This document shows positions 6,184 through 56,937 of a stretch of DNA of 64,000 bases, piece after piece. Source of the DNA: Marinobacter sp. ATCH36 (lineage in GTDB: Bacteria > Pseudomonadota > Gammaproteobacteria > Pseudomonadales > Oleiphilaceae); assembly GCF_023555055.1 (NCBI RefSeq), contig NZ_JAMJPL010000001.1:1178001-1242000 (forward strand). Reading direction: 5' to 3'. A model generated the notes under the pieces. That model had not been told where the DNA came from, made no database searches, and saw only the letters and a program-made list of their open reading frames with translations. Made by a program: the position numbers and the translations under genes. Numbering within the stretch: the stretch's first letter is position 1; every line of letters begins with the position of its first letter.

Positions 6184-6295
6184 GCGTCCATCGCAAACAG
6201 GCTTTCAAAACACGCCACGTAAATACGTCCCTGTAGGGCTCGGTCGCGCCATCCCTGGCGCTCCACGGTTTTGCAAGCCTGTTCGCGATAGACGC
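6184..6295. repeat. Cloverleaf-like intergenic repeat, copy 1
   Basis: Outer arms of 28 bases (6184-6211 and 6268-6295) pair with three mismatches. They enclose a 56-base core starting ACGCC and ending CCACG. Inside the core are two small hairpins: TACG-TCCC-TGTA, and GCGCCA-TCCC-TGGCGC. The core is almost identical to copies 2 and 3, whereas the arms are different. It lies between the convergent pnp and hydrolase genes and could act as a bidirectional 3'-end structure; that role is inferred. Confidence 0.85.
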
Positions 6296-16467: not shown

Positions 16468-16560
16468 GGTTCGGGGGTGGGGTTATCTTTTCTTTGGAAA
16501 AAGAACTCGCTTCGCTCAGACACCTTTTTCTGGCAGAAAAGATAACCCCACCCCCAAACC
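16468..16560. terminator. Long hairpin acting as bidirectional terminator between MarR and Lon genes
   Basis: Arms of 36 and 37 bases (16468-16503 and 16524-16560) pair almost perfectly around a 20-base loop reading AACTCGCTTCGCTCAGACAC. The two genes converge here. The stem carries a T-rich stretch on both strands (CTTTTTC and GAAAAAG), so it may stop transcription in both directions. Like the cloverleaf repeats it has a short central motif enclosed by long unique complementary arms, but the loop is different. Confidence 0.75.
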
Positions 16561-28516: not shown

Positions 28517-28563
28517 CTTTTGGTGGTTGATTGCCTTGTAGTCTGCGGGTTACGGGGCTTTCG

Positions 28564-28668
28564 CGAGGCCGGTCAGGTTATTCAGAACACGCCCGTGGAT
28601 ACGTCCCTGTAGGGCTCGGTCGCGCCATCCCTGGCGCTCCACGGTTCTGATTAACCTGACCTGCCTCG
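28564..28668. repeat. Cloverleaf-like intergenic repeat, copy 2 (left of hipBA)
   Basis: Arms of 25 bases (28564-28588 and 28644-28668, two mismatches) enclose a 55-base core with the same two TCCC-loop hairpins as copy 1. The arms do not match those of copy 1. The full unit 28562-28676 differs from 30522-30636 at only three positions, so hipBA lies between direct repeats. It is also the only structure that could end the aceEF transcript. The rest of the 309-base gap (28517-28825) holds the hipBA control region. Confidence 0.88.
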
Positions 28669-28715
28669 CTTGTTTTTGCCTTGGTAATATCGCCTTTCTG
28701 ATTTTTCTGGTCTTC

Positions 28716-30479: not shown

Positions 30480-30523
30480 AGCTGGTCATTTTCCCCCTGG
30501 CCTGTTAGTTGCGTGGATTTCCG

Positions 30524-30628
30524 CGAGGCCGGTCAGGTTATTCAGAACACGCCCGTGGATACGTCCCTGTAGGGCTCGGTCGCGCCATCCCTGGCGCTTC
30601 ACGGTTCTGACTAACCTGACCAGCCTCG
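30524..30628. repeat. Cloverleaf-like intergenic repeat, copy 3 (right of hipBA)
   Basis: Arms at 30524-30548 and 30604-30628 enclose the conserved core. Only three substitutions distinguish this unit from copy 2. It begins about 45 bases after the hipA stop. The remaining part of the 450-base gap 30480-30929 holds about 235 bases in which I see no convincing gene or signal, and then the porin terminator. Confidence 0.88.
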
Positions 30629-30872
30629 CTTGTTTTAGCTTCTGTGAGATCGCAGTTCTCCTTCAGTATCTTTTGCACACTTATGGGTAGCCGGATTCTC
30701 AGCGGTATTCGCGCCGATGCAGCCCATCTATTTCCTCTCCATGATTTTAAATAGCCCTCTCGCGACCCATGGATAACCGGATGACGAAGGCGCTGCCGCT
30801 GCTTTAAAGAGCCTAGGTGGATGTTGGTGGGAGTGCGATGGGGGCGGGGGAGTGGTTTTAATCCAGGCAAAC

Positions 30873-56631: not shown

Positions 56632-56651
56632 GAAAAACAACGGAGTTGGCA

Positions 56652-56762
56652 GAGCGGCTGGGACACCCCTTCCGAAACACGCTCCTTCGGCACATCCCTG
56701 TGACGCTTGAGCTCCGCCATCCATGGCTACGCACAGTTTCGGAAGGGGTGTCCCAGCCGCTC
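56652..56762. repeat. Cloverleaf-like intergenic repeat, copy 4 (glcE-glcF gap)
   Basis: The 27-base arms (56652-56678 and 56736-56762) are perfectly complementary. The 57-base core starts ACGCTC and contains CACA-TCCC-TGTG and GCCA-TCCA-TGGC hairpins. The core clearly relates to copies 1 to 3 but is diverged; the arms are unrelated in sequence apart from the inner GAAAC end. It begins 21 bases after the glcE stop. Confidence 0.88.
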
Positions 56763-56803
56763 CGCGTCGAAACTCCAGTCAGGCGGCCAGCACAAAATTT
56801 GAA

Positions 56804-56908
56804 AGCGAGCGGGGTAGGGGTATCTGAAATTGTGCGGAGCCATGGATGGCGGAGCCCAAGCGCCCATGGAGGGCTTGAGCGTATTTCAGGTACCCCTACC
56901 CGCTCGCT
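56804..56908. repeat. Cloverleaf-like intergenic repeat, copy 5 (glcE-glcF gap, opposite orientation)
   Basis: Arms (56804-56830 and 56883-56908, one bulge and few mismatches) enclose a 52-base core. Read on the minus strand, the core starts ACGCTC and ends TGGCTCCGCACA, matching copy 4, and holds GCCA-TCCA-TGGC. Copies 4 and 5 therefore face each other with different arms. Together they fill most of the 306-base gap between glcE and glcF; the rest holds only the glcF ribosome binding region. Confidence 0.86.
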
Positions 56909-56937
56909 AAAGCACCGAGTTTAATAGCAGGTAACCC

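Follow-up and report, generated by a model that had tools for sequence, protein, structure and literature searches.

A dispersed family of putative TwoAYGGAY-type RNA elements with paired GGA loops in Marinobacter

Results

Five elements in one window belong to a large family

Five intergenic elements in a 64,000-nucleotide stretch of Marinobacter DNA (hereafter the window) are members of a family with about 122 copies in the genome that contains the window (G000), and the best reading of this family is as a dispersed, partly mobile RNA of the TwoAYGGAY type. Each element would be a folded RNA in which a long stem, free in sequence, carries a pair of ANGGAY loops that we predict to be CsrA sites; judging from sequence comparison, we would give this reading a probability of about 0.6. 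A sequence-only reading of the window had reported five such elements, each with a core inside an outer stem, and inspection of the sequence confirms all five:

6184..6295, RNA strand minus: Element 1; outer stem 6184-6211 / 6268-6295, 25/28 pairs
6248-6259 and 6224-6235, minus: GGA hairpins of Element 1 (GCCAGGGATGGC and TACAGGGACGTA, respectively, on the minus strand)
28563..28669, RNA strand minus: Element 2; outer stem of 26 positions, 24/26 pairs
28624-28635 and 28600-28611, minus: GGA hairpins of Element 2
30523..30629, RNA strand minus: Element 3; outer stem of 26 positions, 24/26 pairs
30584-30595 and 30560-30571, minus: GGA hairpins of Element 3
56649..56765, RNA strand minus: Element 4; outer stem of 30 positions, 29/30 pairs
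56716-56727 and 56691-56702, minus: GGA hairpins of Element 4
56766..56803: spacer between Elements 4 and 5
56804..56909, RNA strand plus: Element 5; inner stem 18/19 pairs, longer with a one-base shift
56839-56850, plus: first GGA hairpin of Element 5 (GCCATGGATGGC)
56862-56874, plus: second hairpin of Element 5; loop ATGGA, without the final Y (among the 8 exceptions in 123 elements)

The match between left and right arms within a copy, noted earlier as 27 of 27 for Element 4, holds over 56652-56762 and becomes 29 of 30 when the stem is extended to 56649-56765. Relative to dinucleotide shuffles, the predicted RNA fold of each window element lies 7 to 10 standard deviations lower.

The copy number in G000 comes from a search with a covariance model of the Marinobacter elements (R1), which was built on the strand opposite to the RNA strand. 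R1 finds matches in every one of the 41 Marinobacter genomes searched first, with 3 to more than 90 copies apiece; across the order, 98 of 245 genomes have matches, and these represent 53 of 112 genera. The 12-base heart of the core, GCCATCC[AC]TGGC, occurs 77 times in G000 as against 0 occurrences of its reversed control; for the core pattern, shuffled sequence leads us to expect 0 matches, and every named match in public genomes is a Marinobacter. The proposal that a family exists had been tied to the discovery of further copies with different but complementary arms, and some 120 such copies are present in G000, which upholds it. The literature searched contained no description of this Marinobacter family.

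Within this one genus, copy number ranges from 3-6 in the low-copy genomes (G012, G019, G025 and G004) to more than 90 in the high-copy ones (G007, G010 and G023). Comparing gene content between the two groups might reveal which enzyme is responsible for the spread.

Pairing evidence identifies the relevant strand

RNA stems tolerate G.U pairs and not A.C, and the two swap when the complementary strand is read. In the outer stems of the G000 copies, which mostly comprise 26-30 pairs and are 96% Watson-Crick, the non-Watson-Crick positions read on the RNA strand include 65 G.U and 11 A.C (p=2e-10), with ratios of 45:8, 53:3 and 43:8 in three other genomes (G122, G116 and G115, respectively). 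Purine-purine mismatches are likewise more frequent than pyrimidine-pyrimidine ones (38:10 in G000, same strand). Across 55 orthologous pairs of elements from G000 and G122, one-sided changes gave rise to 52 G.U as against 4 A.C. Because the model with which copies were found was built on the other strand, ascertainment acts against this result. The G.U:A.C signature is 37:0 where the RNA would run antisense to both flanking genes, 39:7 in convergent gaps and 41:6 in sense contexts; present in all three, it is a property of the element rather than of the neighbouring transcription unit.

The relevant strand is thus the opposite of the one used in the sequence-only reading, and the TCCC and TCCA loops described there are ANGGAY loops. 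An argument against RNA from the rarity of G.U pairs was rejected, having been made on the wrong strand.

Loop positions are near frozen at single loci

Exactly two ANGGAY hairpins, 23-25 nt apart on the RNA strand, are found in 115 of the 123 elements. Of 237 loops, 138 carry U or C at the second position, making the motif broader than AYGGAY, and the hairpin stems are variable, with 21 and 8 distinct 5' strands. When 106 orthologous hairpins are compared between G000 and G122, substitutions at the loop positions A, N, G, G, A and Y number 0, 45, 0, 1, 1 and 26, although, as the loop scan needed at least 3 of 5 motif letters, a few losses could be hidden. The same pattern is seen for G000/G116 and G122/G116. 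Over roughly 15% coding divergence, then, A-GG-A is near frozen at single loci and N is close to saturated. A longer stretch, ACANGGAYGU, is present in 102 of 122 elements and contains most of the SELEX consensus of CsrA, RUACARGGAUGU (PMC4844966).

Taken together, the G.U bias and the near-frozen A-GG-A argue for selection on the fold at individual loci, more likely as RNA than as single-stranded DNA. Strong selection for an RNA or DNA fold had been one of the two mechanisms originally put forward, and both the 52:4 one-sided changes and the near-invariant A, G, G and A positions support it.

Arms change in place while pairing is kept

Arms differ between copies (median identity between G000 copies of 0.40 over 15 outer stem positions), and changes on both sides of a pair are found at nearly all outer-stem pairs. 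The initial description of the arms as mostly unrelated captures these differences and overlooks the weak consensus that the arms do have (CCTTTCCAAAAC at their inner end, and GGG at pairs 16-18 when counted from there), as well as the match between the arms of Elements 2 and 3. Besides the arm, these two elements, which lie 2 kb apart, have some of the right flank in common, so that Element 3 is probably a duplicate of Element 2, or one was copied into the other's site.

How might different copies come to have different arms that nonetheless match within each copy? One idea, also from the sequence-only reading, was that insertion copies a local flank in inverted form. If that were the case, we would not expect what is seen at two sites that are empty in sister genomes, where neither arm is present; at one of them the break coincides with the edge of the right flank box. 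Empty sites without arms imply that the element is gained or lost as a unit, which contradicts the idea, and orthologous arms change in place by paired substitutions. The common arm of Elements 2 and 3 at different sites and the existence, in other genera, of subfamilies with near-identical arms count against it as well, and we consider it very improbable indeed.

A second scenario is that template switching during replication maintains the palindrome neutrally (PMC8794818), in which case complementarity would come from mutation and not from selection. Double changes that keep pairing are indeed common between species: with stems aligned at the best shift, G000 and G122 orthologs differ by 266 double and 80 one-sided changes, and the doubles are as often of transversion type (149) as of transition type (117). 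However, such a process would not distinguish the two strands of the element, whereas the one-sided changes reported above are markedly asymmetric. Moreover, between the close genomes G116 and G115, in 31 orthologs whose flanks are contiguous (after exclusion of one misanchored pair), the stem evolves more slowly than the flank (1.4% versus 2.0% divergence, and 0.6% for the core) with almost no double changes. Template switching is therefore doubtful in the extreme as a full account; it may contribute part of the double changes.

The same contiguous orthologs lead us to reject hypermutating arms; where arm changes between G116 and G115 are large, the whole intergenic region has mostly been replaced. 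Selection on pairing, perhaps with some template switching, would suffice to explain how arms evolve.

L420 in G115 equals its ortholog L355 in G116 in left arm and flank and differs from it in right arm and flank, which would fit a crossover between two copies via the shared core, or an assembly error. At L356 and L391, whose flanks are 99% identical between two sister genomes, a few arm letters seem to have changed sides, left for right, and core orientation is kept. In G301, which belongs to another family of the order, loci L467-L489 form subfamilies with near-identical arms in many copies, as if a single copy had recently been amplified, arms included.

Conserved boxes mark the ends of the element

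The element extends beyond its stem to short boxes on both sides: on the RNA strand, a 5' box (GxTAxCTCCxAAGTTxG) about 20 nt ahead of the stem and a 3' box (CTCCxAAGC) immediately past it. Conservation ends sharply at the 5' box, and the flank conservation profile reveals no promoter upstream in the RNA direction and no GTAG tag of the REP/REPIN type. It had been proposed that the ends vary and the inside is conserved, which is true of the stem and not of the outermost boxes. Target-site duplications were not found, direct repeats within an element's own pair of flanks being no longer than in shuffled pairs.

Like REPs, REPINs and BIMEs, the elements are short dispersed extragenic palindromes of high copy number that often occur in inverted pairs; unlike in REPs, where the ends and a short hairpin sequence are conserved and RAYT transposases are associated, here the stem is free and the loops are fixed. 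Integron attC sites were considered and rejected, as the flank boxes are of CTCCnAAG type rather than RYYYAAC / GTTRRRY and the conserved part is the centre.

The main rival to the RNA reading is a non-autonomous mobile DNA whose one-strand hairpins are recognised by a transposase or recombinase, as in REPIN/RAYT systems or integron attC bottom strands; the element would then have no RNA function, and the GGA loops would be the enzyme's recognition marks. Several observations fit: the high and variable copy number, presence and absence between sister genomes without a trace of the arms, near-sharp ends with boxes, the same-arm subfamilies in another family of the order, an invariable divergent pairing (see below), and the lack of a link between elements and gene strand. 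If the elements were merely substrates of past transposition, though, we would expect them to decay evenly, and fixed elements that occupy the same sites in species differing by 15% have instead retained A-GG-A and accept strand-specific wobble only. The lack of target-site duplications also speaks against mobile DNA, and an unsystematic look identified no family-linked transposase. A single-stranded-DNA mobile element would account for turnover and pairing and not for continuing loop selection at fixed sites, and we regard it as unlikely.

Genomic surroundings

All 34 pairs of elements less than 500 bp apart are arranged alike, the 5' end of each RNA being turned towards the other. Elements 4 (left) and 5 (right) form such a divergent pair between two plus-strand genes; the site of Element 4 is also occupied in the relatives G003, G122 and G010, and an ortholog of Element 5 persists in relatives whose flank identity is as low as about 81%. 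Single elements adjoin gene ends, at a median of about 31-33 nt past the stop codon of the gene reading towards them, and elements are more numerous in convergent gaps (69) than in divergent ones (27). Relative to tandem neighbours, the elements show no sense-strand preference (67 antisense versus 64 sense, with genes called by a simple codon-based procedure).

This proximity to stop codons and the enrichment in convergent gaps are what one would predict for a bidirectional 3'-end element, i.e. a terminator or an mRNA-stabilising hairpin comparable to E. coli BIMEs, selected for a stable stem only. Such an element would leave unexplained the A-GG-A loops with their free N, the fixed loop spacing and the strand signature in antisense contexts. 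In addition, no U-tract follows the stem, and we judge this explanation improbable.

Relation to TwoAYGGAY and other known systems

Rfam assigns TwoAYGGAY to clan CL00106, the CsrB/Rsm clan. TwoAYGGAY itself (RF01731) dates from 2010, when Weinberg et al. (PMC2864571) presented it as a probable RNA without a known function, and it has since been predicted from motif models to bind CsrA, its external stem being 'not well conserved' (PMC4333381). At the gathering level, Rfam gives no match within the window. Below the RF01731 cut-off of 43 bits, the model matches full length at 27.5-39.4 bits, with 13 of 13 matches on the RNA strand; none of the G000 copies reaches the cut-off, the best scoring 41.6. 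Above it, RF01731 is found in 9 of 116 genomes of the order, where it is multicopy with neighbouring matches divergent, and it has no matches in 14 control genomes. Three RF01731-positive loci from other genera are matched by R1 on the opposite strand with the same architecture, one of them strongly (E 1.6e-14), and in G227 the scores are 52.7 bits with RF01731 and 68.9 bits with R1. While the sequence-only reading had recognised no named family, the opposite strand does match one; as the Marinobacter copies stay below the cut-off, we call them TwoAYGGAY-type rather than formal members. Matches to microRNA families in Rfam are weak, fall on both strands and reflect the long stem only.

The likeness to TwoAYGGAY lies in two A-x-GGA-Y hairpins, on the same strand, inside an external stem of poorly conserved sequence, and above-cut-off members in Pseudomonadales are likewise multicopy and divergently paired. 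In contrast to the model, where the second loop base is Y only, Marinobacter elements accept any base there, their outer stem is 26-30 bp long and near perfect, and a single genome can hold as many as about 120 of them.

RNAs of the CsrB, RsmY and RsmZ kind, which sequester CsrA, come from few autonomous small RNA genes per genome, each with many GGA motifs and with promoters. The Marinobacter elements resemble them in having paired GGA motifs in hairpin loops, presumed CsrA sites, and differ in having two conserved sites each, around 100 copies and no visible promoter.

Discussion

What might such an element do? The strand opposite to the one first described would encode a folded RNA whose 26-30 bp stem holds the two small hairpins, and the two ANGGAY loops, spaced closely enough for a dimer to span, would most likely each contact one face of a CsrA (RsmA) dimer, with the long stem serving only to present the loops and protect the RNA. 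We infer both that the RNA is transcribed and that CsrA is its partner, the latter from motif and spacing only. The elements might then titrate CsrA or supply it with binding sites beside genes. Given the lack of sense bias, titration or a role at the DNA level would be favoured over the latter. That same lack of sense-strand preference weighs against the RNA reading, as do the absence of a visible promoter and a strand signature that is no weaker in antisense contexts, and a strand-specific function in DNA may be at work instead.

More tentatively, the hairpin pair may have been spread through Marinobacter and its relatives by a (formerly) mobile RNA element, to up to about 120 copies, and so form a distributed CsrA sponge over many intergenic sites, a possibility that we rate below even odds. 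If true, the sponge would be made of repeats and not of a few dedicated small RNAs, with CsrA, a global regulator, being titrated or recruited. The family as a whole suggests RNA regulation on a genome-wide scale that had gone unnoticed, or a mobile element domesticated for that role. Of ten Marinobacter genomes examined for CsrA, nine have a single gene and one has three, which raises the question of how one CsrA gene copes with some 100 paired sites; the CsrA idea is directly testable in culturable Marinobacter.

Since its description in 2010, TwoAYGGAY has had no more than a motif-based guess, CsrA binding, as to its function. The TwoAYGGAY type now emerges as a high-copy dispersed element throughout a large part of Pseudomonadales, and its evolutionary signature is clean even at individual loci. 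The family is also a large natural data set on how long RNA stems change letters while keeping their pairing.

A second dispersed hairpin family has a similar design, with a long covarying stem around a different conserved core (GGTGTCTGAGCGAAGCGAGTT). Among the loci compared here are ten distinct copies, at sites that include 16468-16560 in the window as well as L272, L274, L290, L311, L435, L067, L081 and L163.
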